From positions 1 through 39,897 of the IMG/VR virus record IMGVR_UViG_3300047094_002208: 39,897 nucleotides of DNA. One strand, 5' to 3'. Below, piece after piece: positions 4,013 through 38,294 of the stretch; position 1 is the stretch's first letter, and each line of letters begins with the position of its first letter. The translations under genes and the position numbers were made by a program. The DNA is from a virus. The notes under the pieces were generated by a model. It did not search any database and had not been told where the DNA came from. It saw nothing but the letters and a program-made list of their open reading frames with translations.

Positions 4013-4022
4013 ATTGATTATA

Positions 4023-5081: not shown

Positions 5082-5095
5082 AACAATCTCCTTGT

Positions 5096-5185: not shown

Positions 5186-5204
5186 ATAATACTTATACTA
5201 ATAT

Positions 5205-5297: not shown

Positions 5298-5302
5298 AAA
5301 TT

Positions 5303-5533: not shown

Positions 5534-5574
5534 GTAAAACTTAAATTGTTAAAGAAGCGTTAAACTATTTCATA

Positions 5575-5603
5575 ATTATATGTTCTAGTTTAATACTTGT
5601 CAA
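5575..5603 (-). promoter_or_regulatory. Consensus sigma70 promoter inside the tRNA array
   Basis: TTGACA at 5603-5598 and TATAAT at 5580-5575 with a 17-base spacer, both perfect matches. It lies just upstream of tRNA-Glu and would transcribe the downstream half of the array using host RNA polymerase. Confidence 0.8.
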
Positions 5604-5610
5604 GTCTTTT

Positions 5611-5686
5611 TGGTGCTGCCTCTTGGAATTGAACCAAGTTCAACGGCTCTTCAGACCGCCGCTATGACCACATCAGCTAAAGCAGC
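5611..5686 (-). tRNA. tRNA-Phe(GAA)
   Basis: Acceptor GCTGCTT/AGGCAGC, anticodon stem GCGGT/GCCGT around CTGAAGA and encoded CCA. Confidence 0.9.
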
Positions 5687-5688
5687 AT

Positions 5689-5764
5689 TGGGGTGTCCTA
5701 CCGGTATCGATCCGGTACTTCCAGTTTCACAGACTAGTATGCAGGCCACTACATTAAGGACACC
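5689..5764 (-). tRNA. tRNA-His(GTG)
   Basis: Acceptor GTGTCCT/AGGACAC plus the extra 5' G that pairs with C73, the histidine identity mark. Anticodon loop CTGTGAA and encoded CCA. Confidence 0.92.
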
Positions 5765-5774
5765 ATTGTTATAA

Positions 5775-5783
5775 TAATAAATA
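5775..5783 (+). promoter_or_regulatory. Late-type promoter box (TAATAAATA)
   Basis: A T4-late-like box only four bases before the ATG of the plus-strand hydroxylase gene, with no ribosome-binding site between. If T4 spacing applies, the transcript would be nearly leaderless. Confidence 0.5.
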
Positions 5784-5787
5784 TCGG

Positions 5788-6498: not shown

Positions 6499-6501
6499 AT
6501 T

Positions 6502-6576
6502 TGGCATCGCCTAAGAGAATCGAACTCCTATTTCCAGGTTCGTAGCCTAGCGTATTATCCATTATACGAAAGCGAT
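6502..6576 (-). tRNA. tRNA-Arg(ACG)
   Basis: Acceptor ATCGCTT/AGGCGAT, anticodon stem CTAGG/CCTGG around CTACGAA and encoded CCA. The A34 would normally be deaminated to inosine. Confidence 0.9.
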
Positions 6577-6577
6577 A

Positions 6578-6651
6578 TGGCAGGGGCACTTGGAATCGAA
6601 CCAAGAATAACGGAATCAAAATCCGGTGTGATGCCACTTCACTATGCCCCA
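6578..6651 (-). tRNA. tRNA-Gln(TTG)
   Basis: Acceptor TGGGGCA/TGCCCCT with a T-T mismatch at the first pair (glutamine tRNAs often have a weak first pair), anticodon loop TTTTGAT, discriminator G and encoded CCA. Confidence 0.88.
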
Positions 6652-6657
6652 ATTGTA

Positions 6658-6731
6658 TGGTGGAGGATAACAGAATCGAACTGTTAATCTCGGCTTGCAA
6701 AGCCGATGTTATCCCATTTAACTAATCCCCC
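6658..6731 (-). tRNA. tRNA-Ala(TGC)
   Basis: Acceptor GGGGGAT/ATCCTCC containing the G3-T70 wobble that marks alanine tRNAs, anticodon stem TCGGC/GCCGA around TTTGCAA and encoded CCA. Confidence 0.93.
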
Positions 6732-6734
6732 AGA

Positions 6735-7013
6735 TTATTCTTTTATGTCTTTGGCATCAACACAAGTGTCGCCTTTGAACACATAGACATCACTGTCTAC
6801 TCTTAGTTGTTCAAAAACTTGATTGTTTACGCAAATATAAGGATCTTTATAATTCTGTGTCCAGAAATATATCCCGTAGCCTATACCTGCTAAAATCATA
6901 AGAATAGGAATGTACTTTAGAAATTGTACAATTTGTGGCATCATGCCTAGCAATTGCGGTAGTTTTTCTAACAGATCTTTCATATGTGTATTTAATCGGT
7001 CTAGATTGTTCAC
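6735..7013 (-). CDS. Small single-pass membrane protein
   Basis: Up to 92 residues from a GTG at 7013; an ATG at 6983 would give 82. Neither has a clear ribosome-binding site. A hydrophobic region (about residues 27-50) is followed by a domain with two cysteines (ICVNN and DTCVD). No family recognised. A GTTGAC/GTCAAC inverted repeat lies upstream at about 7044-7076. Confidence 0.5.
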   Translation of the reverse strand: MNNLDRLNTHMKDLLEKLPQLLGMMPQIVQFLKYIPILMILAGIGYGIYFWTQNYKDPYICVNNQVFEQLRVDSDVYVFKGDTCVDAKDIKE

Positions 7014-7086
7014 CGCACAATCTAGTAAAGCGGGGGTCTGTTGTTGACAATTTATCCTACTTTACGCGGTCAACAAACGCGAGTTT

Positions 7087-7160
7087 TGGTACCCTCAGAA
7101 GGTAACGCTCCTACGTCTTTCGATTATCAGTCGAGTGCTCTACTTTTGAGCTATGAGGGC
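7087..7160 (-). tRNA. tRNA-Ile(GAT) with abnormal T-arm
   Basis: Acceptor GCCCTCA/TGAGGGT, anticodon stem CTCGA/TCGAA around CTGATAA and encoded CCA are sound. The T-arm reads GTAGG-AGCGTTA-CCTTC, so the TTC bases expected at T54-C56 are missing and one stem pair is a T-T mismatch. It may be degenerate. Confidence 0.75.
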
Positions 7161-7169
7161 ATAACCATT

Positions 7170-7177
7170 TATAAATA
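7170..7177 (+). promoter_or_regulatory. Perfect T4-type late promoter box TATAAATA
   Basis: Exact TATAAATA five bases before the ATG of the HNH gene, with no ribosome-binding site between them. Confidence 0.6.
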
Positions 7178-7182
7178 ATCCG

Positions 7183-7449
7183 ATGGCAAAAGATAGAATA
7201 CCCTTTAACCTACGCCGAATGGTAATAGAACGTGATGGACTTCGTTGTGTCTACTGTGATGTAGACTTAACAAATTCAGAAGTACATTTAGATCATGTTA
7301 TACCAGAAAGTCAAGGCGGTAAGACTACTTATGATAATCTACAAGTAACTTGTAGAAAATGTAACTTAGAAAAAGGAATTCTAAGTGAAAGTGAATTTGT
7401 AAACAAACTAAGAACAAGAGCATTAAACATTCTTAGTCGTTTAGGTTAA
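7183..7449 (+). CDS. HNH endonuclease, small free-standing
   Basis: 88 residues. Two CxxC zinc knuckles (CVYC and CRKC) flank the LDHVIPESQGG active-site motif, followed by NLQVTCRKCN, the standard HNH layout. It may be a homing-type nuclease carried in the tRNA array, or a DNA-processing nuclease. It lies on the plus strand between tRNA-Ile and tRNA-Asn and has a late box directly upstream. Confidence 0.88.
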   Translation: MAKDRIPFNLRRMVIERDGLRCVYCDVDLTNSEVHLDHVIPESQGGKTTYDNLQVTCRKCNLEKGILSESEFVNKLRTRALNILSRLG

Positions 7450-7450
7450 T

Positions 7451-7525
7451 TGGCTCCGAGAGTAGGGATCGAACCTACGACCAATTGATTAACAGTCAAC
7501 TGCACTGCCGCTGTGCTATCTCGGA
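7451..7525 (-). tRNA. tRNA-Asn(GTT)
   Basis: Acceptor TCCGAGA/TCTCGGA, anticodon stem GTTGA/TCAAT around CTGTTAA, discriminator G and encoded CCA. Its end lies only two bases from the stop of the opposing HNH gene. Confidence 0.92.
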
Positions 7526-7532
7526 ATAAACT

Positions 7533-7607
7533 TGGTAGTAGTGGTAAGAGTCGAACTTACACTGTACACCGTATGAAGGTGCTGCACTACCATTATGCTA
7601 CACTACC
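7533..7607 (-). tRNA. tRNA-Met(CAT)
   Basis: Acceptor GGTAGTG/CACTACT, anticodon stem GCACC/GGTGT around TTCATAC and encoded CCA. It lacks the initiator marks, so elongator Met or Ile2 is likely. Confidence 0.88.
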
Positions 7608-7687
7608 ATATAGAAACACATTCTTGGATTCTCGTAACAGTAACCCATAGCTCCGGACGCCATTATGTGTTTGAATGTGTTTTTATA
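7608..7687 (-). ncRNA. Structured spacer between tRNA-Lys and tRNA-Met
   Basis: Closed by an 18-base inverted repeat with one mismatch (7606-7623 with 7673-7690) that includes the CCA of tRNA-Lys and the first two bases of tRNA-Met, the same architecture as the 5379-5457 spacer. The arms share the AAACACAT core. A GGGTT/AATCC hairpin can form inside. The interior sequence differs from the other spacer. Confidence 0.45.
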
Positions 7688-7764
7688 TGGTGGGTGCGGT
7701 GAGACTCGAACTCACAACTTATCGGTTAAAAGCCGATTACTCTAACCAGTTGAGTTACGCACCC
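7688..7764 (-). tRNA. tRNA-Lys(TTT)
   Basis: Acceptor GGGTGCG/CGCACCC, anticodon stem ATCGG/CCGAT around CTTTTAA and encoded CCA. Confidence 0.93.
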
Positions 7765-7814
7765 TAGCGTTTAGGACCGCCGTCCGTCTTGTCACTATCC
7801 ATAACAGGATCTCC

Positions 7815-7874
7815 TTATTTTAAATTTCTATCAATAAACAAAAGTAATGCGACTATCATCATCATAACTGCCAT
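7815..7874 (-). CDS. Possible 19-residue membrane peptide
   Basis: Starts MAVMMMIVALLLF and ends RNLK, a single hydrophobic helix. An AGGAG lies upstream at a somewhat long distance. A 12-residue ORF with a good AGGAG site follows it (7764-7802). Both could be leader-like or spurious. Confidence 0.25.
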   Translation of the reverse strand: MAVMMMIVALLLFIDRNLK

Positions 7875-7913
7875 TGCCCCATTTTCTTTCTCCTTGTAAA
7901 ATGTTGCTACTAT

Positions 7914-7988
7914 TGGCGACTCGTAGGGGAATCGAACCCCTGTGTCCGGATAGACAGTCCAGCATAATGACCTTTATATGAACGAGCC
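7914..7988 (-). tRNA. tRNA-Asp(GTC)
   Basis: Acceptor GGCTCGT/ACGAGTC, anticodon stem CTGGA/TCCGG around CTGTCTA, discriminator G and encoded CCA. Confidence 0.9.
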
Positions 7989-7993
7989 TTGTT

Positions 7994-8067
7994 TGGCTCC
8001 GGAGGAGGGAATCGAACCCCCACTAACGGTTTTGGAGACCGCCGCACTGCCATTATACTACTCCGGA
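7994..8067 (-). tRNA. tRNA-Trp(CCA)
   Basis: Acceptor TCCGGAG/CTCCGGA, anticodon stem CGGT/ACCG around CTCCAAA, discriminator G and encoded CCA. Confidence 0.92.
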
Positions 8068-9618: not shown

Positions 9619-9924
9619 TTAGCTTAATTTAATTACTGTTAGTAATGCTTCGTCTCGACTCCAAAATGCCCAATACCATTTTCCATGCGTGTCACGTTCT
9701 AAAAATATCGGAGCCATCTTATATCCTGTATCTACAATTTGATTGTGACAAGTATCCCAATTACTCCAATTGATGCCGTTCTTTAGATTAGTTTCTACTC
9801 TGTCTATAGGATTTATAATTAGGATTACTTCGGGCGGGTTATCCAAAAATCTACTACGTTGCCTATCGATTTCGTAATAGGGGATATACTTTTCTAACCA
9901 ATCATGCCAAGATACTATTTTCAT
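9619..9924 (-). CDS. Protein of unknown function
   Basis: 101 residues, starting MKIVSWHDWLEKYIPYY, rich in Trp and Tyr, soluble. It overlaps the end of the DUF3501 gene by 23 bases with an AAGGA site before its ATG, so the two are coupled. No family recognised. The 108 bases between it and pqqA hold a TTTTTACC/GGTAAAA inverted repeat and possible pqqA promoter sequence. Confidence 0.6.
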   Translation of the reverse strand: MKIVSWHDWLEKYIPYYEIDRQRSRFLDNPPEVILIINPIDRVETNLKNGINWSNWDTCHNQIVDTGYKMAPIFLERDTHGKWYWAFWSRDEALLTVIKLS

Positions 9925-10498
9925 TAAAATCCTTGACTAACATTTCCTTAGTCAAAGTATTTACTCTAGTGTACTCATTATAGGTAGGGTGGTCAACTCC
10001 TACAGTAAACGCAGTATCTGAATCACACATGTCTTTGATCATTTCTGGTGTTAGTTCAAAACGTAAAAAATGTACAGCAGCAGTTTTAGTATCGTTTGAA
10101 CGATCCATATCTTCATCCGCAATAGCATACACTGGTTGATGTCCTTCTACTTTGATATAGATTTTATCTTCTACACGATGTAATTCTTCTAATTTAGCCG
10201 CACGTATTTCTGGATTGCTATACTCTATAGTCAAAGTCGCTTTTAGATTAGTACCAGTAGGTATGAGAGGATTATATGCATCTAATTCATCCTGAATACC
10301 TTCAGAGGTAAATGTTTTTTCAATTAGCAGCATTTCTTGTATTTGATATTTGACAGTTACACGATCCTCGAAATGTAAGGTCATATGATTACCTAATTGT
10401 ACCTGTCGATGCTTACGATGGTTTACTGCTATACGTTTAAAGTCGTTACGGATTCGACTGTATTCTTCTAATGAGTGTAAATCACTGTGTGTTAACAT
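9902..10498 (-). CDS. DUF3501 family protein
   Basis: 198 residues matching the DUF3501 pattern as I recall it: an N-terminal LHSLEEYSRIRNDFK, then FEDRVTVKYQIQEML, then DAYNPLIPTGTNLKATL and a C-terminal AVHFLRFELT. In bacteria, DUF3501 genes commonly sit beside rubrerythrin and an Fe-S oxidoreductase, and are thought to act in oxidative or peroxide stress. Here too the neighbour upstream is rubrerythrin, so the pair was probably acquired together. Confidence 0.75.
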   Translation of the reverse strand: MLTHSDLHSLEEYSRIRNDFKRIAVNHRKHRQVQLGNHMTLHFEDRVTVKYQIQEMLLIEKTFTSEGIQDELDAYNPLIPTGTNLKATLTIEYSNPEIRAAKLEELHRVEDKIYIKVEGHQPVYAIADEDMDRSNDTKTAAVHFLRFELTPEMIKDMCDSDTAFTVGVDHPTYNEYTRVNTLTKEMLVKDFNENSILA

Positions 10499-10513
10499 TT
10501 TTATTCCTTAGAG

Positions 10514-10535
10514 AAAAAAAGGGGACTAGGTCCCC
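10514..10535 (-). terminator. Rho-independent terminator after rubrerythrin
   Basis: GGGGAC/GTCCCC hairpin followed on the minus strand by seven T. It lies between rubrerythrin and DUF3501, so DUF3501 depends on read-through or its own promoter. Confidence 0.85.
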
Positions 10536-10551
10536 TATTAAATACTACAAA

Positions 10552-10989
10552 TTAAGCGTTGTCTGCTTTGTAAGCGTCAAGAGTTTTCTGAAACTTACCA
10601 GCGTGGCTACGTTCTGCTTTAGCAAGAGTATCGAACCAGTCAGCAATTTCATCAAAGCCTTCTTCACGTGCATCACGTGCCATACCAGGGTACATATCAG
10701 TATACTCGTGTGTTTCGCCATGAATAGCACTTTCAAGAGCTTGTACAATATCTTTAGCTGGTAATCCAGTTTCTGGATCGCCGCTGCCACCTTCGATCAA
10801 ATATTCCATATGACCATGAGCATGGCCTGTTTCACCTTCTGCGGTATGACGGAAGATGTTGGCTACATCAGTAGCACCTGCAATGTCAGCCATGTTTGCG
10901 AAATACAAATAACGACGGTTAGCTTTTGATTCTCCTGCGAATGCATCCTTTAAATGCTGTTCGGTTTTAGTTCCTACTAGTTTTTCCAT
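10552..10989 (-). CDS. Rubrerythrin-type diiron protein without rubredoxin domain
   Basis: 145 residues forming a ferritin-like four-helix bundle. Iron ligands are visible as E20 (FAGES), E53 and H56 (EGETGHAH), and a second set in HGETHEY and KAERSHAGK. The C-terminal rubredoxin CxxC domain of classical rubrerythrin is absent. Members reduce hydrogen peroxide or handle iron. An AAGGAG site and a near-consensus promoter precede it and a terminator follows, so it can be expressed on its own. Confidence 0.9.
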
Positions 10990-14974: not shown

Positions 14975-16384
14975 TTAGAAGTTTAGCTGACTACGGAACA
15001 TTACTGCTCTGTCGCCATTTACTCGACTACCTGAACTGCCTACTAAACTATCAAATTTAGTATCAACGTAGTTCAACATAAAGCGAAGATTATCAGTTGC
15101 AAACCAAGTTAGACCATAGGTCATTGCTGTAGCACGATTGGTTTTACCAGTAGCAACAGCGATGTCACCGGCATCAAACTCACTCATACGCACACCAACT
15201 TGCCATGCACCACGACCACCTTTATCTAAAGCATTTGCTGGCTTGATTGAACTAAATGCACCATCTTTGTAGTTAAATGATTCACCAGTTAGATTGTACA
15301 CGGCTTGTACATAGTAACCTTTAATTTCTTGATTGCTACCTGTGGTAGGATCATATTTGAAATTAAAATATTCACTCTGTACTTTAAAGGCATTGTAAGC
15401 GATAGCCGCTTCCAGACCTTGGCGTGTGCGTTCAGTCACACCACTTAGAGCAGTACCTGTGAAGAACGCATTAGCTGAACGAGATTCTGTTCTACCACTT
15501 GCAGGAGTTACTCCGCCTTTGATTTCTCCGGTACTATAAGCTGCACCTAAGTGAGCAATGTATGCCTTACTACCTTGCAATTCAGCGATGTTGGTGGTAA
15601 CACGACCGATGTAATCAAAGCCATCGGATACTGCGTCTTTGTTGGCACGACCACGACTTGCTGCAACGGCATAGGTTAAACCAGCCTTAGGCACACCATG
15701 TATCATAAAACCAGTTTCTTTACCAGGAATAAATTCCCCCTCTACTTGACCAACTAGGCTACGTTCCATGAAGTCAATGTTATTAGAACTAGTTAACTGT
15801 TCAAGACTGAACGGCATTTTAAATAAACCAAATTGGTATTGTAGTTCTGGGTTGGCTGCATAGTTTACCCAGGCCACATCCATCGTAGTCGATGTTGAAG
15901 ACATTCCTACATCGTTACCGAAGTTACCAGAAAATTCATATTTGAAATCCTTTTGGAATTGTCCACGTACACCAAATCTAGCACGACGAACTTCTGCTAA
16001 GTTCTGATACGAATCTGTGGTTTGACCTGTACCGTAATCTGGGGAGTACTGACGATAGTCCATGTGTAATCGACCTGTAACCTGCAAGGTATTGTTTCCA
16101 TCCTTGCTTTTAAGTCCGACTCCGTTTTCTGTAACTGATCCGTCGTTGGCTCTTGCAAATCTGTAGTTAAAGTTTTCACGGAGGTCTTTGTCAATTCTTT
16201 GTTCCGCGAACTTTTTGTTTTCTGATCGTTCTTCGTATGCTTGGATTTTAGCATTATATTCCTTTTGTGTTAAGATACCCTTATCGCGAAGAATATTAAG
16301 TGTGTCAATGTATTCGTCTGCCTGTGCCGCACCAAAACAAAATGTCAAAGCGATGGCAAGACTTAATTTTTTTAAGTTTTTCAT
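14975..16384 (-). CDS. OprO/OprP-type phosphate-selective porin
   Basis: 469 residues from the ATG at 16384, chosen for its AAGGACAC site and because it begins a clean signal peptide (MKNLKKLSLAIALTF...AQA). A short helical domain (residues about 23-60, with GILTQKEYNAKI) precedes a 16-strand-type beta-barrel ending in an outer-membrane C-terminal Phe (SQLNF). Family members are trimeric outer-membrane channels that favour phosphate or polyphosphate. It sits 10 bases after pstS, so outer- and inner-compartment phosphate capture are linked. Confidence 0.85.
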   Translation of the reverse strand: MKNLKKLSLAIALTFCFGAAQADEYIDTLNILRDKGILTQKEYNAKIQAYEERSENKKFAEQRIDKDLRENFNYRFARANDGSVTENGVGLKSKDGNNTLQVTGRLHMDYRQYSPDYGTGQTTDSYQNLAEVRRARFGVRGQFQKDFKYEFSGNFGNDVGMSSTSTTMDVAWVNYAANPELQYQFGLFKMPFSLEQLTSSNNIDFMERSLVGQVEGEFIPGKETGFMIHGVPKAGLTYAVAASRGRANKDAVSDGFDYIGRVTTNIAELQGSKAYIAHLGAAYSTGEIKGGVTPASGRTESRSANAFFTGTALSGVTERTRQGLEAAIAYNAFKVQSEYFNFKYDPTTGSNQEIKGYYVQAVYNLTGESFNYKDGAFSSIKPANALDKGGRGAWQVGVRMSEFDAGDIAVATGKTNRATAMTYGLTWFATDNLRFMLNYVDTKFDSLVGSSGSRVNGDRAVMFRSQLNF

Positions 16385-16394
16385 GTCTGTGTCC

Positions 16395-17420
16395 TTATTT
16401 CCAAATTGGGTTATTGTCTGGGCCACGGAACTCCTTCTTCCAATTTTCCTGAACAAGTTTGATTACATCAGCTGGCATGTGAACATATTCTAAGTCTGCT
16501 GCCATTTGACCGCCATTTTTATATGACCAGTCGAAGAATTTGAGAACTGCACGACCTGTCAGTGTGTCTGCTTGTTGCTTGTGCATGATAATAAAACTAG
16601 CACCTGTGGCTGGCCAAGCATCTTTACCTGTTTGCCAAGTTAGCAACAAATACATGCCAGGAGCATTTGCCCAATCTGCATTGGCTGTTGCTGCTTTGAA
16701 TGTGCCATCATCTGGCAATACAAAGTTACCATCACGGTTTTTTAATGCAGCATAAGGAATCTTGTTTCTCTTTGCAAATGCGTATTCGACATATCCAAAT
16801 GCACCTTTGATACGTTGCACTTGTGCGGCAACACCTTCGTTACCTTTGCCTCCTACGCCTACTGGCCACTTAACAGCTGATCCTTCGCCAACACCTTTAG
16901 CAAAATCAGCATTGGCTTTGCTTAAGAAGTTAGTCCAGATAAATGTAGTGCCGGAACCATCTGCACGATGAATTACCACGATAGGAATAGCAGGCAGACT
17001 GATGCCTGGATTTAAATCTGCGATTGCTTTATCATTCCATTTATTGATTTTGCCAAGATGAATGTTAGCAATGATGTCTGGTGTGAGTTTGAGTTGTCCT
17101 GGTGCAATACCGTCTAGATTGAACACTGGTACAACACCACCTATGATAGCCGGGAATTGCACAAGACCTTCTTTGTCCAATTCTTCTTTTTTCAACGGCA
17201 TGTCACTGGCACCGAAGTCAACTGTCTTGGCCTTGATTTGACGAATACCGCCACCACTGCCAATTGATTGATAGTTTAGACCAATACCAGTTTGAGCTTT
17301 ATAGGCTTCTGCCCACTTAGCGTAAATTGGGAATGGGAATGTAGCACCTGCTCCAGTAAATTCTGCTGCTGATGCTAACGAGGATACTGCTAGTAAAACG
17401 GTTGCGATTAAATTTCGCAT
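16395..17420 (-). CDS. pstS: Periplasmic phosphate-binding protein PstS
   Basis: 341 residues: signal peptide (to SLASA), then the mature start EFTGAGATFPFPIYAKW. The phosphate-binding loops are recognisable as GSGGGIRQIKAKTVDFGASDMP and HRADGSGTTFIWTNFLS. Length and order match PstS of the PstSCAB transporter. Phage PstS is thought to raise phosphate uptake by the host transporter during infection. A TAGGAGAC site precedes the start. A candidate Pho-box lies upstream. Confidence 0.95.
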   Translation of the reverse strand: MRNLIATVLLAVSSLASAAEFTGAGATFPFPIYAKWAEAYKAQTGIGLNYQSIGSGGGIRQIKAKTVDFGASDMPLKKEELDKEGLVQFPAIIGGVVPVFNLDGIAPGQLKLTPDIIANIHLGKINKWNDKAIADLNPGISLPAIPIVVIHRADGSGTTFIWTNFLSKANADFAKGVGEGSAVKWPVGVGGKGNEGVAAQVQRIKGAFGYVEYAFAKRNKIPYAALKNRDGNFVLPDDGTFKAATANADWANAPGMYLLLTWQTGKDAWPATGASFIIMHKQQADTLTGRAVLKFFDWSYKNGGQMAADLEYVHMPADVIKLVQENWKKEFRGPDNNPIWK

Positions 17421-17468
17421 AGTGTGTCTCCTATTTGAGTATTATGAAGCGACTCTGCTTCAAGCAAA

Positions 17469-17503
17469 TATTTAAGCATACAAATATTACAAGCGTGTTA
17501 CAA
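17469..17503 (-). promoter_or_regulatory. Candidate Pho-box and late-like box upstream of pstS
   Basis: On the minus strand TTGTAAC-ACGC-TTGTAAT (17503-17486) has two 7-mers with 4-base spacing, as in PhoB boxes, each matching the CTGTCAT consensus at about five positions. It runs into TTGTAATATTTG and CTTAAATA (17476-17469), an arrangement repeated upstream of the PlcP gene. Confidence 0.45.
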
Positions 17504-17540
17504 ATTACAACTTTTTTACTCAAATATTACACAAATATGA

Positions 17541-18260
17541 CTATGACCAATACTTATTATGAATTGTTTTTTTCCAATATGAAGGATTTTTTAAATTAAT
17601 AAAATTTTTTATCATATACCATGCCATTCCAAAATAACCCATTTTTTTGAATCTGCGACTGTCCTGGCCATAATAATGATTAATAATTCTAAATTTTTTC
17701 ACATCATATTTTGATGATAAAAAAAAGTCTTCTGATGTTGTAAACTGTTCAGGAAATCCTCCGAACTCATCAAATTTGTCTTTTCTAGTAAGCATAAAAG
17801 CACCTACTGCGAAAGGTGAAAAGTGTTTCAAAATATGATTGAGTTTATTAAAAATAAAAAAACTAAGTTCTGCTTTCCAGTCGTTTTCATAGCATCTTAT
17901 GTTAGCACCTATTAAGTCTAGATTGTCTAACTCAAGTTCAAATACAGCATCACGAATTGTAAAGCTGTCAAAAAATATCACATCGGCATCTATAAACAAA
18001 ATATAAGGTGTAGTGACTAACTTGGCTGCATTGTTTCTTGCTACAGAAACAGGACCACCATCGATGATTTCTATATTAAGAAATGAACGATTATTTGTTA
18101 TTATATCTCTGGTGCCATCAGTTGAACAGTCGGCAATAATTACTCTTGTGTTGCCTATCTTTTGTAGTCGCAGTGAATCAAGCAAATGGCCTATGTATTG
18201 TTCTTCATTTTTACAGGGAATTATAATAGTGAGTTTTTCACTTAGGGTATCTTTTGACAT
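17541..18260 (-). CDS. Family 2 glycosyltransferase
   Basis: 239 residues with the GT-A fold: LTIIIPCKNEEQYI at the nucleotide-sugar site, DCSTDGT, then the metal-binding D91-A-D93 (LFIDADVIFF), and a later TSEDFFLS acceptor motif. The C-terminus is hydrophobic and aromatic, which may hold it at the membrane. Next to a PlcP-like phosphoesterase, a role in making glycolipids from diacylglycerol is possible. Modification of host surface sugars is the alternative. Confidence 0.82.
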   Translation of the reverse strand: MSKDTLSEKLTIIIPCKNEEQYIGHLLDSLRLQKIGNTRVIIADCSTDGTRDIITNNRSFLNIEIIDGGPVSVARNNAAKLVTTPYILFIDADVIFFDSFTIRDAVFELELDNLDLIGANIRCYENDWKAELSFFIFNKLNHILKHFSPFAVGAFMLTRKDKFDEFGGFPEQFTTSEDFFLSSKYDVKKFRIINHYYGQDSRRFKKMGYFGMAWYMIKNFINLKNPSYWKKTIHNKYWS

Positions 18261-19870: not shown

Positions 19871-19878
19871 TATTTATC
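19871..19878 (-). promoter_or_regulatory. Late-type box GATAAATA
   Basis: Lies over the stop of the upstream radical SAM gene, 22 bases before the start of the GATase-like gene. Confidence 0.5.
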
Positions 19879-21364
19879 ACTTATCGTAGTTCAATTTGTT
19901 AATTACGTACTTTTTTAAGTATTCGTATACTCCTGGTTGTTTCCAAAAGTCCGAATCTCGATTGGCATAACCGATAGTAGTTTCTCTAGTGTCTATCCAT
20001 TTTTTATTAGCTGCTTCTTCAAATGAAAGATCGTTAATTAATTGTTGTTCGCCTATTAACCAATTGCTTACTAAAGATTCAGACTTATGACAAAGCGGGT
20101 GATTAATAACGATGTCATATGCTTCCTTAAAACTTGTTCCTGTTTCGTAATTTACCCAGTCTATAATATCGTCTACATCATTATCTTCTTTTAAATTTGT
20201 ATATCCGTATTTTTCATAAGCTTCTGAAATTGCATTAGAATCTTTACCTATTAATTTATTTCTATTAAAAATATTTAAAGGAAAAAATGCCGGTGAACAA
20301 TATTTTAAATTTTCTCTAATCCATTTAATTCCACTCAAAAAGCTATCAAAAGTTTCATAAGGTAACCCGCAAATAAAAGATGTTCTACATCTATAGAAAC
20401 TTCTTTCAGAAAAATATTTTTCTATATCTAATAAACCTTGCTTGACTTTATCAGGATGCATACCTTTTTTAATTGCCTTACCGCTTTTATGATTAAATGT
20501 CTCGATTCCGTATGTATGACTTACATAACCCATGGCAATCATATCTTCCCAAGTCTCGGGATGACTTATCATTAAGTCTACTCTTGTAAAGGCAGTAATC
20601 CAAGGTTTAAATTTAATTTGTTGTTGTGTAGCTTCTGCTAGTAATTTAAGTTTTTCAGGATTCACATTAGCTGTACTATCTGCACTGAAAAAAGTAGTTA
20701 CGCCAAAATTATCATAGAGATAATTCATATTATCTACATAATTTTGTACTTCTCTAAAGTTATCTCCTTTAACTCCTAAAGGTTGATATCCGCAAAAGTC
20801 GCACATGAACTTACATCCTCTACTCCATTCAATACCTAATTGTTCTTGAGGTTGAATGAAATCTCTATCTTCATATCTTAAAGTTAGATCTTTCATAAAA
20901 ATTGAAGGATAATCATAGGTTGCTCTGACAAGTTTTCCTTTTCCAAATAATGTATATTTCAATCTTTCTGTATTAGTACCAAGTATATTTTTTATCACTT
21001 CTAGCATAGCATGTTCTCCATATCCTTCTATATAATAGTCGGCTGGCATAGATACTTGTGTAATTTTTTGACCGCCTGTGATAATTTTTACTCTAGGATA
21101 TTCTTTCTTCAACCATGTTGTAAGTTCAGAAAAATCAAGATTATGTACAGTACCCCATGTATCACTAAATCCTAAAAAAACAGTGTCTTTGTTTATTCGA
21201 GTTTTAACAATTTTAGTAATATATTCAACTGGTATTAACCCGGCATAATCGATGACTTCTACATCCCAATCTTGCTGTCTCAAAAAACTGGCAATTTTGT
21301 GAGCACCAAGATTTCGTGTTATGTATACAGTTTGTATGCTTATGATTACTGCATGATTCATCAT
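19877..21364 (-). CDS. B12-binding-type radical SAM protein
   Basis: 495 residues. The N-terminal 150 residues form a Rossmann-like cobalamin-binding-type domain (GAHKIASFLRQQDWDVEVIDY, then ITGGQK), but without the classic DxHxxG. C184-x3-C188-x2-C191 (GCKFMCDFC) is the radical SAM 4Fe-4S site, and the TIM-barrel motif YVSHTYGIETFNHKSGK follows. Related proteins are methyltransferases or cyclases. It is paralogous to the next gene. The substrate is unknown. Confidence 0.85.
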   Translation of the reverse strand: MMNHAVIISIQTVYITRNLGAHKIASFLRQQDWDVEVIDYAGLIPVEYITKIVKTRINKDTVFLGFSDTWGTVHNLDFSELTTWLKKEYPRVKIITGGQKITQVSMPADYYIEGYGEHAMLEVIKNILGTNTERLKYTLFGKGKLVRATYDYPSIFMKDLTLRYEDRDFIQPQEQLGIEWSRGCKFMCDFCGYQPLGVKGDNFREVQNYVDNMNYLYDNFGVTTFFSADSTANVNPEKLKLLAEATQQQIKFKPWITAFTRVDLMISHPETWEDMIAMGYVSHTYGIETFNHKSGKAIKKGMHPDKVKQGLLDIEKYFSERSFYRCRTSFICGLPYETFDSFLSGIKWIRENLKYCSPAFFPLNIFNRNKLIGKDSNAISEAYEKYGYTNLKEDNDVDDIIDWVNYETGTSFKEAYDIVINHPLCHKSESLVSNWLIGEQQLINDLSFEEAANKKWIDTRETTIGYANRDSDFWKQPGVYEYLKKYVINKLNYDK

Positions 21365-21370
21365 TATCCT

Positions 21371-22798
21371 TTATGCTTTTGATTTTAGTAGTAATTTATA
21401 CTCTTCAAACAATTTTTGTTCTAAATCATATAAATCGCCTGTTAAAGCAATAATATCTTTTATTTTATGATTAACAATCTGTTCTATTTTAAGTCCTGCT
21501 GTAGTATATGCACCTAAACTAAATCCAAACGGTCGTTCATGTACTTTAAATTCTCTATTAAGTTCACATGTTAATTGAAAAGCCTCTAAATAAGTATATT
21601 CACCCCATTTCCAAAAAAAAGGTTCAGAATCATCTGGCCATTCTATTTTTAAATTTTTAGCATTATCTTCCCAAGTACTTTGATAACTTTCAGATCCTTT
21701 TATCATAACTAATGGTTTCCAGGTAAAAAATCCAATTTCTGATTTTGAAAACCATTCGCCTGTTTCAAAATGATGTTCTCTAGATACACCTGGTAATCCT
21801 CCTATGAGACTACAATCAATGTGTACTTTTTGCCATTTTTCTCTTAGTTCCAATAAAAAGTCTTTGCCTCTTCTTCCACTCCAAGGTTTTAAAACTAATT
21901 TAGATGCTTCAGGATGAAAAGTTTCCATGCCTAATAATGTAGCTCTAAGACCTGACTCTTGTAAAAGATCTATAGTATGAGGATGTTTATCTAATAAATC
22001 CGGCCTATTGTATGAAATAAATTCTAATTTAAATGGCAGTTGTTGACTAACTTTGTGTAATGTTTCTAATCGTTCGTTATCTGCATTAAAAGTTTCATCT
22101 AAAAAATAATAGCTAGTTGTCCCGTATCGTTCATACATCTCTGTTAGGACATCAACCATCAAGCTACCATCTTTTTCATTTGTACCTGCTTTTTTTCCTA
22201 AATTTGGATATTTACAGAAAGGACATTTAAAAATACATCCTCTTCCCCATTCTAAAGGAACTGTTTCATTAGGTAATAAGCAATCATGATCTTTAAAAAT
22301 AAATCTATGATGATTAAAGTCAAATTTATTTCTTTTTAATCTTGTGCCTATTTTTTTGTTTGACAACTCATCTAATAAATTTAGTAACCAATCTTCTCCC
22401 CAATCAATAACACATTTAAAGTCAAAAACTTCCATACCTTGCATATCATGGTAACCTCGATGACCACCTACTGCGGTTTTAATTTTAGGAAATTCTTTTT
22501 TAATTTCTTTTAAGGCATTGTATATATTATCAGGAACACTTCTTGCATGGACGTTCATCATTAACTCAGAACGATAAGTTGACCACATATTACTGCTTGC
22601 ACCTATTAATATAGTGTCATCGTCTACGAACATCTTTGTATATTCGTATAATTCCTGAGGATCAAATAGGTGTGTAAATTCTATTACTTGGCAAGTATAG
22701 CCATTTTCTTCAATCCATCTGGCCAACAAATAGCAACCTATCGTTCTCCAAACTAAGGGTCTATAACCTAATTGATTATATAAAATAACATTTGCCAT
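21371..22798 (-). CDS. B12-binding-type radical SAM protein
   Basis: 475 residues with the same two-domain plan as its neighbour: N-terminal GCYLLARWIEENGYTCQVIE and VGGHRGYH, then C188-x3-C192-x2-C195 (GCIFKCPFCKYP) and SGLRATLLGMETFHPEASK. The two are separated by six bases and probably act on the same pathway. Its start is preceded by TATAAGTA (late-like) and no Shine-Dalgarno. The terminator of the tmRNA lies immediately upstream. Confidence 0.85.
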   Translation of the reverse strand: MANVILYNQLGYRPLVWRTIGCYLLARWIEENGYTCQVIEFTHLFDPQELYEYTKMFVDDDTILIGASSNMWSTYRSELMMNVHARSVPDNIYNALKEIKKEFPKIKTAVGGHRGYHDMQGMEVFDFKCVIDWGEDWLLNLLDELSNKKIGTRLKRNKFDFNHHRFIFKDHDCLLPNETVPLEWGRGCIFKCPFCKYPNLGKKAGTNEKDGSLMVDVLTEMYERYGTTSYYFLDETFNADNERLETLHKVSQQLPFKLEFISYNRPDLLDKHPHTIDLLQESGLRATLLGMETFHPEASKLVLKPWSGRRGKDFLLELREKWQKVHIDCSLIGGLPGVSREHHFETGEWFSKSEIGFFTWKPLVMIKGSESYQSTWEDNAKNLKIEWPDDSEPFFWKWGEYTYLEAFQLTCELNREFKVHERPFGFSLGAYTTAGLKIEQIVNHKIKDIIALTGDLYDLEQKLFEEYKLLLKSKA

Positions 22799-22812
22799 TT
22801 ACGTACTTATAG

Positions 22813-22840
22813 AAATTAAAAGGCACCGAAGTGCCTTTTA
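22813..22840 (-). terminator. Rho-independent terminator of tmRNA
   Basis: AAAAGGCAC-TTCG-GTGCCTTTT hairpin followed by AATTTCT on the minus strand. Confidence 0.85.
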
Positions 22841-23225
22841 GACTATTTTTGGTAACAAGGCATAGTTGCCCCGAAGTTCTGCTGTTTCTTAAGCAGCTAA
22901 AGCAAAAGCTTCATCGTTAGCGGCTACGCTAACTGGGCTTTGCCAGAACTTGAATGTAGATACGTTTGCATCTATAGTTTTGCTTGATTTACGGTCATCG
23001 CCTACCGTGTTGTCCATATCCTTACTCATTACCCTGTCGAAACCAAATTCAGGCCCATCAGAATAAATCACAATTTCGTTCTTTTTCTTTGTCCAAAGTT
23101 TTATCACGAGCAATATATACTGCTCCAAACACTACTAACGATAAGATAAAAATATAATATATCATAATTTATTTTGGTGGACCTGCCCGGGGTCGAACCG
23201 GGGTCCAGAATACCTTTCATTCAAC
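22841..23225 (-). ncRNA. ssrA: Circularly permuted tmRNA (two-piece ssrA)
   Basis: The acceptor piece comes first on the minus strand. It has a T-arm (CCCGG-TTCGACC-CCGGG), the 3' strand CAGGTCC, A73 and encoded CCA ending at 23175. About 118 bases later the coding piece begins at 23056 with GGGCCTG, which pairs with CAGGTCC over seven bases (one G-T), followed by the tmRNA hallmark TTTGGTTTCGACAGGG. AGGGTA can pair with GTATTCT of the acceptor piece as helix P2. The resume frame encodes AANDEAFALAA and stop (22924-22889), a classic proteolysis tag. Exact piece ends are uncertain. tmRNA rescues stalled ribosomes and tags the nascent chain. Confidence 0.9.
23058..23165 (-). CDS. 35-residue membrane peptide inside the tmRNA spacer
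   Basis: The ORF fills almost the whole interval between acceptor and coding pieces: it starts ten bases after CCA and its stop ends one base before GGGCCTG. It begins MIYYIFILSLVVFGAVYIA, a single hydrophobic helix, and ends in a charged tail (DKTLDKEKER...). There is no clear ribosome-binding site. The spacer is normally removed in processing, so expression is uncertain. Confidence 0.4.
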   Translation of the reverse strand: MIYYIFILSLVVFGAVYIARDKTLDKEKERNCDLF

Positions 23226-23366
23226 TTCATACAACAATTCTTTTAACTTTTGAACATACTTTTGACACTCACCGCATTGATGATCTACTTGCATTATACG
23301 TTCTATTAGATCTTCTTGTCTACTAAAATCGGATTCTTTTATATTGCGACAAATACAAATTATCAT
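23217..23366 (-). CDS. bfd: Bfd-type [2Fe-2S] ferredoxin
   Basis: 49 residues. Cysteines C4, C6, C31 and C34 (ICICRN and CGECQKY) reproduce the C-x-C...C-x2-C pattern of bacterioferritin-associated ferredoxin, whose cluster donates electrons to release iron from bacterioferritin. It is shorter than E. coli Bfd (64) because the C-terminal tail and part of the middle are missing. The 3' end overlaps the likely start of the tmRNA acceptor piece. It follows a small membrane-protein gene with TAAAATG spacing. Confidence 0.82.
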   Translation of the reverse strand: MIICICRNIKESDFSRQEDLIERIMQVDHQCGECQKYVQKLKELLYEVE

Positions 23367-24379: not shown

Positions 24380-25093
24380 ATGTATACAATTATTGCAACA
24401 CTGGTGATGACACATATCACCATAGTCTGCGTCACTCTCTTTTTACACCGTAGTCAAGCACATAGAGGAATCGAATTTCATCCTGTGGCAAAACACTTTA
24501 TGAGATTTTGGTTATGGCTTACCACTGGCATGATAACTAAACAATGGGTAGCCGTACATCGAAAGCATCACAGATTTACCGATGGATTAGAAGATCCACA
24601 CAGCCCAAAAGTATATGGTATTTTTTATGTACTTTTTTATGGTGCATTCCTTTACAGTCAAGCTGCTAAAGATAAAGATATGATCAACTCGTATGGAGCA
24701 GGTACTCCAGACGATTGGATAGAACGTAACATTTATACTCCCCACAACTGGTTAGGGATTCTTTTGATGTTGGTCATTGACCTTGTTCTTTTTGGCCTTG
24801 CTGGTTTTATTGTGTGGGGAGTACAAATGTTATGGATTCCTCTTTGGGCTGCTGGTGTTATTAACGGCCTAGGACATTATTTTGGTTACCGTAACACCGA
24901 TACTGACGATTCAAGCACTAATATTGTTCCATGGGGAATCATAATAGGTGGCGAGGAATTACATAATAATCATCATGAAAATCCAGCTAATCCTAAACTA
25001 AGTTCTAAGTGGTGGGAATTTGATATAGGTTGGATGTGGTTTAAGATATTAGAATTCTTTAATCTTGCGTGGCGTAGGCAAGCACTCGTTTAA
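24380..25093 (+). CDS. Membrane fatty-acid desaturase (acyl-CoA delta-9 type)
   Basis: 237 residues. The three histidine boxes that bind the diiron site are present: HRSQAH (23-28), HRKHH (60-64) and HNNHH near residue 200, with the following NPANPKLSSKWWEFDIGW typical of bacterial stearoyl-type desaturases. Four hydrophobic segments surround them. It introduces a double bond into acyl chains and would raise membrane fluidity during infection. It is the last gene of a three-gene plus-strand operon and overlaps the convergent zincin gene by 35 bases. Confidence 0.9.
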   Translation: MYTIIATLVMTHITIVCVTLFLHRSQAHRGIEFHPVAKHFMRFWLWLTTGMITKQWVAVHRKHHRFTDGLEDPHSPKVYGIFYVLFYGAFLYSQAAKDKDMINSYGAGTPDDWIERNIYTPHNWLGILLMLVIDLVLFGLAGFIVWGVQMLWIPLWAAGVINGLGHYFGYRNTDTDDSSTNIVPWGIIIGGEELHNNHHENPANPKLSSKWWEFDIGWMWFKILEFFNLAWRRQALV

Positions 25094-28240: not shown

Positions 28241-28775
28241 CTTTTACCAAAGCTTTCATAATTTTAATTGCCCATTGAAAAGCAACTTTGGCTTCGTCGC
28301 CTAAGTCATCTGTTAACTCTGCTCTTATAGCAGTTTTCAAATTTTCAGCATCTTTGAATTGATAAAAGCGGCCTTGGCCTGGACATTTTTTAGCAATAAT
28401 TTGTCCGCCAAATAAATCACCCATATGACGACAATACAAGTGTGCTTTAACTAAATGACGTCTTTCAGTGTCATAGTTAAGAGCTAGTACATATTGATAA
28501 TATTCAATAGTTTCTGGCAACCACTTAAGATTATGATTATTACCTACTAGTTCGATACAGTCTTGATAGATTTTGTGTGCTCGTTCAATGTCAGGTAAGT
28601 TTTTTAACATACCTTGACTATTTGCCGAAGTTTCTATTCCGTTATAAACGAGAACCATTTGCCAAAGATAGTTAGCATATTCTTCTTTAGTAAATGATCC
28701 TGTTACAAGTTTTTTAGCAAATATAGTTCTTTCTGCGTCTGCATGTAACTCTTTGGTTATTTCACGTAAACTCAT
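28233..28775 (-). CDS. Heme oxygenase
   Basis: 180 residues. The axial heme ligand is H11 (ELHADAE), and the distal-helix GDLFGGQ lies at residues 119-125 in RHMGDLFGGQIIAKKCPG. It splits heme into biliverdin, CO and Fe2+. Its 3' end overlaps pcyX and its 5' end overlaps clpS (ATGA), so the three are co-expressed. Besides feeding PcyX, it would free iron for the phage's many iron enzymes. Confidence 0.93.
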   Translation of the reverse strand: MSLREITKELHADAERTIFAKKLVTGSFTKEEYANYLWQMVLVYNGIETSANSQGMLKNLPDIERAHKIYQDCIELVGNNHNLKWLPETIEYYQYVLALNYDTERRHLVKAHLYCRHMGDLFGGQIIAKKCPGQGRFYQFKDAENLKTAIRAELTDDLGDEAKVAFQWAIKIMKALVKDE

Positions 28776-29077
28776 TCTTCTTCCATTTTAACTTGGAGTG
28801 GGAATCCTTGTGATCTAGCAACTGTGGTTACTTCGACAGCTTTGGCTTCTGCTATGTCGAATGTATAAACACCTGCAATACCACTACCACTATTATGTAT
28901 CTCCATAGTGATCTCTTTTGCAGTTTCTTGGCTATGTTTAAAAACTTCTGTTAATACTTCTATAACGAAATCCATCGGAGTGTAATCGTCGTTTAGAAAT
29001 ATGACTTTCCACTTTTTCGGTTCTTGATATTTTTGTTTAATTTTTTCGTCGATTTTTACATCAGAATCTACTGCCAT
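28772..29077 (-). CDS. clpS: ClpS adaptor of the Clp protease
   Basis: 101 residues from the ATG at 29077, which has a GGAGG site five bases away. The core WKVIFLNDDYTPMDFVIEVL is the ClpS signature: the ND-D-TPM region binds N-degron substrates, and GVYTFDIAEAKA completes the fold. ClpS delivers N-end-rule substrates to ClpAP. A phage copy could steer host proteolysis. Confidence 0.93.
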   Translation of the reverse strand: MAVDSDVKIDEKIKQKYQEPKKWKVIFLNDDYTPMDFVIEVLTEVFKHSQETAKEITMEIHNSGSGIAGVYTFDIAEAKAVEVTTVARSQGFPLQVKMEEE

Positions 29078-29090
29078 CACTGCCTCCATA

Positions 29091-29126: not shown

Positions 29127-29576
29127 TTACTTAACTTCTACAATGTCAATTACTCGAGCTTTCTTTTCTTCTGGAATAATATATTCAAGGCTAATAGTTA
29201 AGATTCCGTCTTTAATCTCGGCTCCATTTACAACCATATGTTCTGCTAGTTGCCAACTTCTTACAAAACTTCTGCTACTTAAACCTCGGTGTAGGTATTG
29301 TCTAGTTAAAGTTTCGTTAGTTGCTTCTGATTCTCCCCTCACTGTTAGCATGTCTTGTTCAACTTCAACATTTATCTCATGTTTTTTGAAACCAGCAACT
29401 GCTATTTCAATTTGATAATGTGTGTCGTCAGTTTTAACAATATTATGCGGAGGATAGTTAGTAGATAACTGATTTGCAAATCTTGATTCGAAAGTATCGA
29501 ACAATCTGTCAAATCCTACTAAAGCTTTGTTTAATGCTGTTGTATCAAAACGTGCTACTGTACCATTCATTGTCAT
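29127..29576 (-). CDS. Small heat-shock protein (Hsp20/IbpA-like)
   Basis: 149 residues from the ATG at 29576, which has an AAGGAG site; the ORF runs eight codons further upstream. An N-terminal ALVGFDRLFD leads into an alpha-crystallin domain (about 45-135) with YQIEIAVAGF, DMLTVRGE and a beta-8 DGILTISLEY. It holds unfolded proteins for refolding by DnaK, which is encoded directly upstream. Its leader TCTTGCTTAATTTAAGGAGAAA closely repeats that of dnaK. Confidence 0.92.
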   Translation of the reverse strand: MTMNGTVARFDTTALNKALVGFDRLFDTFESRFANQLSTNYPPHNIVKTDDTHYQIEIAVAGFKKHEINVEVEQDMLTVRGESEATNETLTRQYLHRGLSSRSFVRSWQLAEHMVVNGAEIKDGILTISLEYIIPEEKKARVIDIVEVK

Positions 29577-29637
29577 TTGATTTCTCCTTAAATTAAGCAA
29601 GATACAATATTTGACCCAAAGGCGTCAAATATAAGTC

Positions 29638-31515
29638 TTAAGTGGTTTCCTTGAATTCTGCATCAACTACAACTTCGTCGGAATTTCCACTTGAAGATTC
29701 GGTTTTACTTTTCGCTGTTGCAATGATTTGTTGAACTTCGAAAAGCTTTGAAATACATTCATTAATTTTTTCTTTATCTGTGCCTTTATGTGCCTCTTCT
29801 GCTGCCTGACAAGCCTCGTTAATCTTTGTTTTTTCTTCTTCGGTAAGATTTGATTCTACTTCTTTCATATCATTACGAAGATTATGTACTATACCTTCGG
29901 CGTTGTTACGTGCCTCGATTAATTCACGTTGTTTACGATCCTCTTCTGCATTAACTTCTGCATCTTGTACCATACGTTCGATTTCTTCAGCAGTTAAACC
30001 ACTGTCACTCTTAATGGTAATCTTATTTTCCTTACCTGTGTTTTTATCTTTAGCACTAACATGCATAATGCCGTTGGCATCGATATCAATTGTAACTTCG
30101 ATTTGAGGAACACCTCTACGTGCAGGTGCAATACCTTCTAAGTTAAATTCGCCTAATGATTTATTATAAGCGAACATTTCACGCTCACCCTGTGCAATTT
30201 TGATAGTAACTGCTGGCTGATTATCTTCCGCAGTACTAAACACTTGACTAGCTTTGGTAGGAATAGTTGTATTCTTAGTAATTAATTTAGTAAAGATACC
30301 GCCCATAGTTTCAATACCAAGACTTAATGGAGTGACATCTAATAGTAGAACGTCTTTACGATCTCCTCCTAGCACAGCACCTTGTACCGCAGCACCAGCA
30401 GCCACTGCCTCATCAGGGTTAACATCTTTGCGTGGTGTCTTGCCAAATAGTTTTTCAACTTCTTCTTGCACCTTAGGCATACGTGTTTGACCACCAACTA
30501 AAATAACTTCATCGATATCGGCGGCAGTTACTTTTGCATCATTTAATGCTTGACGACAAGGAGCAAGACTACGTTGAATCAAATCTTCGACTAAGCTCTC
30601 TAATTTTGCACGAGTTACTTTAATATTAAGATGTTTAGGACCTGTAGCATCTGCGGTAATATAAGGAAGGTTAACGTCAGTTTGTGTGCTATTACTTAAT
30701 TCAATCTTTGTACGTTCTGCTGCTTCTTTTAGACGCTGTAGTGCCATAACGTCTTTACTCAAATCAATTCCTTGTTCCTTTTTAAATTCGGAAACAAGAT
30801 GATCCATAATACGATTATCAAAATCTTCGCCACCAAGGAATGTATCACCATTTGTGCTTAGTACTTCGATTTGTTTATCGCCATCTACATTGGCGATTTC
30901 AATAATGGAAACATCAAAAGTACCACCACCTAGATCATAAACAGCAACTTTACGATCTTTCTTGTCAGTCTTATCTACACCATATGCAAGAGCTGCTGCG
31001 GTAGGCTCGTTAATAATACGTAGAACTTCTAATCCAGCAATCTTACCAGCATCTTTAGTTGCTTGACGTTGACTGTCGTTGAAGTATGCAGGTACGGTGA
31101 TAACTGCTTGAGTAACTTCTGCACCAAGATAGTCTTCAGCAGTTTTTTTCATTTTACGTAGAACTTCTGCTGAAATTTGAGGAGGTGCTAATTCTTTGTC
31201 GTTAGCACGAATCCATGCATCGCCATTTTTAGCCTCTGTGATTTCGTAAGGCATCAAATCGATATCTTTTTGTACTGCTTGTTCTTTAAATTTGCGGCCG
31301 ATTAAACGCTTGGCTGCATAGATTGTGTTTTTAGGATTAGTTACTGCTTGACGTTTAGCTGGTGCTCCAACTAAAATTTCTTCGTTTGTGTATGCGACGA
31401 TACTTGGAGTAGTTCTGGCACCTTCACTGTTTTCAATAATTTTAACTGTGCCATTTTCAATTACTGCTACACAACTGTTTGTTGTACCCAAATCGATACC
31501 AATGATTTTGCTCAT
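29638..31515 (-). CDS. dnaK: DnaK (Hsp70) chaperone
   Basis: 625 residues, full length (E. coli 638). ATPase-domain signatures [25 protein letters not shown] and [11 protein letters not shown] are intact, followed by a linker [19 protein letters not shown] and the substrate domain to a short acidic C-terminus ending FKETT. No DnaJ or GrpE gene is present in the window, so host cochaperones must serve. The nearby IscU carries an LPPVK motif that HscA/Hsp70 chaperones bind. AAGGAG site. Confidence 0.98.
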
Positions 31516-37597: not shown

Positions 37598-37924
37598 TCA
37601 GATTCTAAATGATTCACCGCAACCGCATCGGTCCTTTTCTTTACTGTTAATAAAATCAAAACCTTCATTGAGACCTTGACGTCGCCAATCCATAGTCATT
37701 CCATCAATGTATGGTAAGTCTCGGCCGTTGACCCAAATTTTTATTCCATTGCTATCGTATGTCATATAATCACGTGTTACCGGAGGATTATCAACATACT
37801 CTAATTTATAGGCGAGGCCTGAACAACCGGTGGTTCTTACACCAATCATTATGCCAAGGCCTCGACCTCTTTTAGATAGTTGTTGCTGTACCTTCTTCGC
37901 TGCTATTTCTGTTAGCTGTATCAT
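37598..37924 (-). CDS. iscA: IscA/ErpA-type Fe-S carrier
   Basis: 108 residues. The A-type carrier cysteines are present: C34 in TTGCSGLAYKLEY, and C100 and C102 in CGCGESF. It accepts clusters from IscU and passes them to target proteins. The start overlaps iscU by 53 bases in another frame, an unusually long overlap. Confidence 0.95.
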   Translation of the reverse strand: MIQLTEIAAKKVQQQLSKRGRGLGIMIGVRTTGCSGLAYKLEYVDNPPVTRDYMTYDSNGIKIWVNGRDLPYIDGMTMDWRRQGLNEGFDFINSKEKDRCGCGESFRI

Positions 37925-38294
37925 TTTTTGATTTATAATCTGCTAATGCTGCTTTAATTGCATCTTCCGCCAATATGGAACAGTGGATTTTGACAGGAGG
38001 TAACGCGAGTTCTTCCGCAATGTGGGTATTCTTAATCGAATTCGCCTCATCCAGACTCTTTCCCTTAAGCCACGTAGTGACAAGCGACGAAGATGCGATC
38101 GCCGAACCGCAACCATATGTCTTAAATTTAGCATCTGTGATAACATTGTCCTCTACCTTGATTTGAAGTTGAAGTACATCTCCGCAAGCAGGTGCACCAA
38201 CTAACCCGGTGCCCACGCTTGGATCATCTTTATCAAGTTTTCCAACATTACGTGGATTTTCGTAGTGGTCTACAACTTGATCCGAATAAGCCAT
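37872..38294 (-). CDS. iscU: IscU Fe-S cluster scaffold
   Basis: 140 residues. Cluster ligands C37 and D39 (GAPACGDV), C62 (YGCGSAIASSS) and H104-C105 (VKIHCSILAEDA) are all present, as is the LPPVK site (98-102) that HscA binds. The C-terminus is about 15 residues longer than usual because of the overlap with iscA. No IscS is in the window, so sulfur must come from the host desulfurase. Confidence 0.96.
   Translation of the reverse strand: MAYSDQVVDHYENPRNVGKLDKDDPSVGTGLVGAPACGDVLQLQIKVEDNVITDAKFKTYGCGSAIASSSLVTTWLKGKSLDEANSIKNTHIAEELALPPVKIHCSILAEDAIKAALADYKSKNDTANRNSSEEGTATTI

Follow-up and report, generated by a model that had tools for sequence, protein, structure and literature searches.

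A probable 26-residue tag in a phage-borne permuted tmRNA gene and its extended family in viral contigs

What would a phage gain from a tmRNA gene of its own, and what peptide would such a gene add to the products of stalled ribosomes? The question is raised by a locus in the IMG/VR virus record IMGVR_UViG_3300047094_002208, all 39,897 bases of which are called the window here. A preliminary description, made from the letters alone, proposed that the locus encodes a circularly permuted tmRNA and suggested a covariance search with permuted tmRNA models. That identification is borne out. ARAGORN reports a permuted gene (tmRNA*) at 22798-23267 on the minus strand, and cmscan on the window finds both RF04321 tmRNA_permuted (124.5 bits, E 4e-24, 22889-23236 minus) and RF01850 beta_tmRNA (104.5 bits, E 6e-31, 22816-23279 minus, full length), above the curated cut-offs of 47 and 84 bits. 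The acceptor and T-arm half lies upstream, followed by an insert and then by the coding half. The beta model is the top model in the tmRNA clan, which makes the gene one of the betaproteobacterial type; its tag, at 26 amino acids, departs from the 10-residue ANDExFALAA-like tag by which that type is recognized. The parts of the gene, all on the minus strand, are as follows.

About 22817 to 23286, minus strand: permuted tmRNA (ssrA) transcription unit, from the ARAGORN tmRNA* prediction with RF04321 and RF01850
23293 to 23322, minus strand: candidate sigma70-like promoter TAGACA-18-TATAAT, from an 11/12 consensus match only
23175 to 23236 (5' end approximate), minus strand: acceptor piece with P2 strand, T-arm, acceptor 3' strand CAGGTCC, A and encoded CCA, from the RF04321 alignment and the sequence
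23057 to 23174, minus strand: 118-nt intervening sequence between the CCA and the coding piece, expected to be removed, from the sequence
22841 to 23056, minus strand: coding piece with acceptor 5' strand GGGCCTG, D-loop TGGTTTCGAC, PK1 region, tag and 3' domain, from the sequence and Rfam
22889 to 22969, minus strand: tag reading frame of 26 amino acids and TAA, from ARAGORN, its retention in the L067 and L119/L207 alleles, and pN/pS
22943 to 22969, minus strand: conserved N-terminal tag block ANVSTFKFW, of the family AN-x-[STND]-TF-[EK]-[YF]-[FYW], from 24 distinct long-tag frames in viral contigs
22892 to 22921, minus strand: C-terminal ANDEAFALAA, from the sequence and ARAGORN
22916 to 22933, minus strand: 7-bp hairpin GTTAGCG-TAGC-CGCTAAC within the tag frame, from the sequence
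22881 to 22897, minus strand: helix bracketing the stop codon, GCTG..TAAGAAA..CAGC, from covariation in the long-tag set
22817 to 22840, minus strand: intrinsic terminator

The landmarks given earlier are exact: 23175 is the last base of the encoded CCA, and GGGCCTG at 23056 opens the coding half. The proposed pairing of CAGGTCC with GGGCCTG is also intact, with 7/7 pairs and the G3.U70 alanine signal at pair 3:70, and the CCA and a TTCGA T-loop are present as well. Pairing of the acceptor strands across the insert, with G3.U70, is retained in diverse tmRNA sequences, in a comparison that took in only genes with at least six pairs. An automatic stem parser put acceptor pairing at 0.865, where shuffles reached 0.763 at most; it missed 65 of the 118 genes and mis-registered some, so the acceptor-stem point rests on the six-pair comparison and the Rfam alignments. 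Promoter-like sites number four in the window against 3.9 expected in shuffles, and the site upstream of the gene is the sole one to match at 11/12 positions. Taken from its sequence, the window tmRNA is very likely functional.

The tag is where the gene parts from its known relatives. The preliminary description read it as ANDEAFALAA, which turns out to be only the last ten residues of ANVSTFKFWQSPVSVAANDEAFALAA, a frame of 26 amino acids that begins at the resume codon GCA at 22969, the choice of both ARAGORN and RF04321. This frame follows PK1, and its last codons before the TAA encode a small hydrophobic degron. A second in-frame look-alike of a resume site is found at 22921, and for this reason the tags of relatives were compared. 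Three alleles of distinct sequence, from different metagenomes, share this tag or depart from it by a single V-to-I change: the window type, L067/L127 (one and the same contig) and L119/L207. From one allele to another, DNA identity is 94-97% in the tag, against 61-79% for the 90 nt upstream and 71-87% for the 70 nt downstream. The L119 tag differs from the window tag by synonymous changes only, and among similar tags pN/pS is about 0.32, indicating purifying selection on the frame. The hairpin within the window tag is no general feature of the long-tag family; its pairing is kept in L067 through one compensatory two-sided change (GTTAGCA-TCGC-TGCTAAC). A tag of 10 residues was rejected since the 26-residue frame is conserved across alleles and the wider family, and we hold the longer tag with high confidence.

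That family is made up of tags of 22-30 amino acids with the common head AN-x-[STND]-TF-[EK]-[YF]-[FYW]. In a covariance-model search, 35 of 50 related virus records score above cut-off, and several of the 50 have tags of 23-30 residues with the same start as the window tag; this set was not chosen by the long-tag motif, and a few of its records entered through matches to the window-type tag. A motif scan then yields 32 viral contigs, among which 24 different long-tag frames can be told apart, examples being ANASTFEYFTVEGFTADNGLVAA, ANANTFEYFKVPASVAFSANDADFAMAA and ANTSTFEYFTVDFDISAMNDEQFEMVA. The constancy of the head is partly due to the design of the scan, the head having first been noticed in the set not selected on the motif. 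Conservation is highest in the N-terminal block, the middle and end segments are variable and mixed-looking, and the C-termini drift (LVAA, LVA, MVA, IAA), all of them still small-hydrophobic and ssrA-like. Covariation preserves the helix around the stop codon in 24/24 frames, as GCAG/CTGC, GCTG/CAGC, GTTG/CAAC, GTAG/CTAC or GCGG/CCGC.

Long tags were seen only in viral contigs, of sizes up to 383 kb. The motif is absent from 399 genomes of the order of one Burkholderiales MAG, and the window-type tag from the 84,980 bacterial and archaeal genomes searched. A tblastn search of 50,697 phage records gave no match to the long tag, the 28-aa query being a weak one, and no tag-like peptides were found inside or at the ends of phage proteins among the phage loci screened. 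In a tmRNA tree of 221 columns, some rows of which are doubtful, long tags do not form one clade and at least four changes are forced. The pattern is consistent with exchange of tags between tmRNA backbones, and we give it little weight.

One allele of the family has an unusual elbow. In L119 (6080-6640, minus) and L207, the usual T-loop TTCGA is lost and reads GGCGGTA, and the usual D-loop GGTTTCGAC is lost and reads AGTATCGAT. The 7/7 acceptor stem, G3.U70 and the 26-aa tag are kept despite both losses, and the elbow of this tmRNA is possibly remodelled. The alpha model is the best fit to the L119 allele, at only 62.7 bits.

Permuted tmRNAs with ordinary tags are common in phages. A scan for ANDExFALAA finds at least 120 contigs, most of those listed being permuted tmRNAs with 10-aa tags by ARAGORN; beyond the published cases, IMG/VR holds at least roughly 100 phage permuted tmRNAs. 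Among related phages, L215 and L222 have an unusual 13-aa tag, ANDAFFGETRLAA, and others have ANAANDEVFALAA. At about 1850-2395 of L013, in the 331-kb record G041, the ANDExFALAA pattern is accompanied by tmRNA model matches that are two-piece and sub-threshold only; a long insert may separate the pieces, or the copy may have decayed.

To what kind of phage does the window belong? The preliminary description called it T4-type. No T4 core gene was seen in the window fragment itself; the support comes from its best syntenic relative, G001 (364,554 bases), which has the same tag and encodes a T4-type portal. Such a portal is found in long-tag records of 364, 383, 278, 270 and 356 kb. The window and G001 share the order tmRNA - ClpS - Hsp20 - DnaK, with identities of 90.5% for DnaK, 86% for Hsp20 and 77% for ClpS. 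The three protein genes lie in the window as follows, and the ClpS match upholds the earlier report of that adaptor.

28772 to 29089, minus strand: ClpS adaptor, from PF02617 (109.5 bits) and ClpS structures
29127 to 29576, minus strand: Hsp20 with an ATG start at 29576, from phrog_432 and the sequence
29638 to 31515, minus strand: DnaK, from NF001413 (986 bits) and PF00012

The window also contains a tRNA cluster at 807-8067 (minus) that covers most amino acids, with 22 genes by ARAGORN and 23 with an Rfam addition at 7090-7160. Host-type genes at 9902-10989, 14975-18260, 19877-22798, 24380-25093 and 37872-38294 include DUF3501, rubrerythrin, a phosphate porin, a PstS-like protein, two radical SAM proteins (one B12-binding), a fatty acid desaturase and NifU. 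From the IMG sample numbers, the habitat is presumably of freshwater type. Directly upstream of Hsp20, at 29565-29631 (minus), there is a candidate ROSE_3-type RNA thermometer (30.6 bits, E 0.0018, below cut-off), for which a single-strand fold does not clearly show the expected pairing. Before a phage Hsp20 in L067 (1145-1211) and L127 (13860-13926), the same contig, ROSE_3 scores 44.4 bits with a cut-off of 43. An RNA thermometer on a phage heat-shock gene would be unusual, if true.

The relatives carry more of the Clp machinery than the 39.9-kb window fragment, which has ClpS. Besides ClpS, DnaK and Hsp20, G001 encodes a ClpP of 195 aa, with the catalytic Ser/His/Asp intact in an alignment with solved ClpP, and a ClpA-like protein of 750 aa that has an IGF loop as well as a pair of Walker A motifs. 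ClpA, ClpP and ClpS are also present in the long-tag records G014 (383 kb), G462 (356 kb) and G452 (212 kb), and ClpA and ClpP in G454 (270 kb). The ClpA proteins tested score 878-885 bits against the NCBIfam cut-off of 993 and are thus ClpA-like rather than certified ClpA. Phages with ordinary tags of 10-13 residues likewise carry ClpA, ClpP and ClpS, so the Clp genes alone do not explain the long tag.

ClpX was not found in the five long-tag records with ClpA, where a very diverged copy could escape, and tblastn for ClpX over the sequence of G001 and G014 returned only the cross-match to ClpA. A ClpX-like protein of about 400 aa occurs in the large records G020, G026, G027, G041, G045 and G048, which have 10-13-aa tags or no clear tmRNA match; the G045 copy exceeds the NCBIfam ClpX cut-off. 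These phages are related to each other, so the association of the long tag with the absence of ClpX is not independent evidence. In G045 (352 kb, with a 10-aa tag tmRNA), positions 6-2347 of L294 hold an apparent operon ClpX - Hsp20 - ClpS. SmpB was found in none of 38 and none of 20 related virus records, nor in G001, and SspB was not found in the relatives searched, G001 included.

Taken together, this is probably the working two-piece tmRNA gene of a huge T4-like phage, one that performs trans-translation and whose tag head is best explained as serving ClpAP-type degradation. The precursor RNA would be transcribed from its own promoter, and the 118-nt insert would be excised by an RNase, with the two pieces remaining paired. 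Alanyl-tRNA synthetase would charge the CCA end via G3.U70. Since these phages lack a detected SmpB, the phage tmRNA would depend on its host, whose SmpB may bring it into stalled ribosomes. The ribosome would then resume at the GCA at 22969, adding Ala and the 26-residue tag. Most likely, host SmpB is used in this way so that stalled proteins receive a longer Clp degron as their tag. We infer all of these steps, from RNase processing, alanine charging and the use of host SmpB to tagging and the Clp degradation of tagged proteins.

Within the tag, the C-terminal FALAA would act as an ordinary Clp degron. The conserved head ANxSTF[EK][YF][FYW] corresponds in position to the part of the E. coli tag that SspB and ClpA contact, and for this reason it is proposed to be an additional segment, for engagement or as an adaptor, that most likely serves a protease of the ClpAP type. 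Degradation of the ClpAP type is favoured because members of the phage family encode ClpA, ClpP and ClpS themselves. That the phage ClpAP itself reads the tag is suggested by co-occurrence only and is possible, if somewhat doubtful. A simple model in which ClpS assists the tag is complicated by E. coli ClpS, which inhibits ClpAP degradation of ssrA-tagged proteins.

Other readings of the gene can be weighed against trans-translation with the long tag. Should the ribosome resume at the GCU at 22921, after UAGCC, the tag would be an ordinary ANDEAFALAA and the 48 nt upstream an insertion. UAGCC-GCUAACGAUGAA does resemble a normal beta resume site, and the RF01850 alignment places its model tag there. 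However, it is the first site, at 22969, whose spacing from PK1 is normal and which RF04321 and ARAGORN choose; the frame from it is protein-conserved across the family, most members of which are without any ANDE, which makes the shorter tag highly improbable. There is a similarly slim chance that the gene is a decaying copy of a host ssrA acquired by the phage, or the remnant of an integration site. The loop losses in the L119/L207 allele would fit decay, but the window gene has all its parts, the tag changes in L119 are synonymous beside a 7/7 acceptor stem, and synteny is kept across phages at 90% DnaK identity.

The RNA could also be turned against its host, titrating out SmpB or taking up stalled ribosomes rather than tagging. 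The tmRNA of phage DS6A, which has no CDS, inhibits host tmRNA (PMC11915505), and the present phages are without SmpB. A pure decoy is not expected to maintain a 26-aa frame under purifying selection, and this role is very unlikely. Somewhat better placed, and still unlikely, is the idea that the extended tag mainly labels proteins for something other than degradation, such as sequestration, transport to a phage compartment or stabilization, or that it is a ribosome-stress signal that times lysis. The better conservation of the N-terminal block over the drifting C-termini would suit such a label, yet every C-terminus remains ssrA-like, and phage Clp genes co-occur.

How new, then, is the two-piece gene with the long tag? 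With betaproteobacterial permuted tmRNA (RF01850; RF04321), it shares gene order, G3.U70 acceptor stem, CCA, T-arm, insert, resume context, tag end helix and 3' domain; it differs in being phage-borne and in having a tag of 26 residues instead of the usual 10 (ANDExFALAA). The preliminary description knew of no permuted tmRNA in a T4-type phage. This is contradicted by the T4-like aquatic OM43 myophage Melnitz, which has a two-piece tmRNA; permuted structures are predicted for about 53 more tmRNAs from publicly available phage genomes (PMC9004378). A claim to the first such gene in a T4-type phage was rejected on the strength of Melnitz and the others, and with the ordinary-tag contigs this report means that phage-borne permuted tmRNA is neither rare nor new. 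Unlike the window gene, the Melnitz ssrA is of the alphaproteobacterial type with a glutamine riboswitch, and an extended tag family is not mentioned in the part available (PMC9004378). A survey of huge phages describes tmRNAs, some with SmpB, whereas SmpB was not found in the present phages; the accessible portion of the survey does not mention permutation or tag sequence, and its text contains no Clp term (PMC7162821). Individual ClpP, ClpS, ClpA and ClpX genes are known from jumbo phages and are not tied to a phage tmRNA in the excerpted text of that source (PMC7824862), while here ClpA, ClpP, ClpS and tmRNA share one genome.

Phage carriage of a permuted tmRNA is thus known, and the extended tag family is new within the tools and open literature searched. 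The unusual feature, missed in the preliminary description, is this family and its co-occurrence with phage ClpA, ClpP and ClpS. Long tags as such have a parallel in the Mycoplasma-type ssrA tags, which are well over 20 residues, but those are unrelated in sequence and their tmRNA is one-piece.

A broader and more tentative proposal is that a class of tmRNA tag peculiar to them has evolved in huge T4-like phages. Such tags, of 22-30 aa, would join the conserved head ANxxTF[EK][YF][FYW] to tails that can be exchanged, and may be read preferentially by phage ClpA-ClpP(-ClpS), routing the products of stalled ribosomes to phage-controlled rather than host proteolysis. The degradation tags of tmRNA are among the most conserved peptides of bacteria. 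A phage-only family of long tags, beside the phages' own Clp unfoldase, peptidase and adaptor, suggests that quality-control proteolysis has been rebuilt by phages. With it, the question of why phages carry tmRNA becomes testable, and an orthogonal pair of degron and protease could result.
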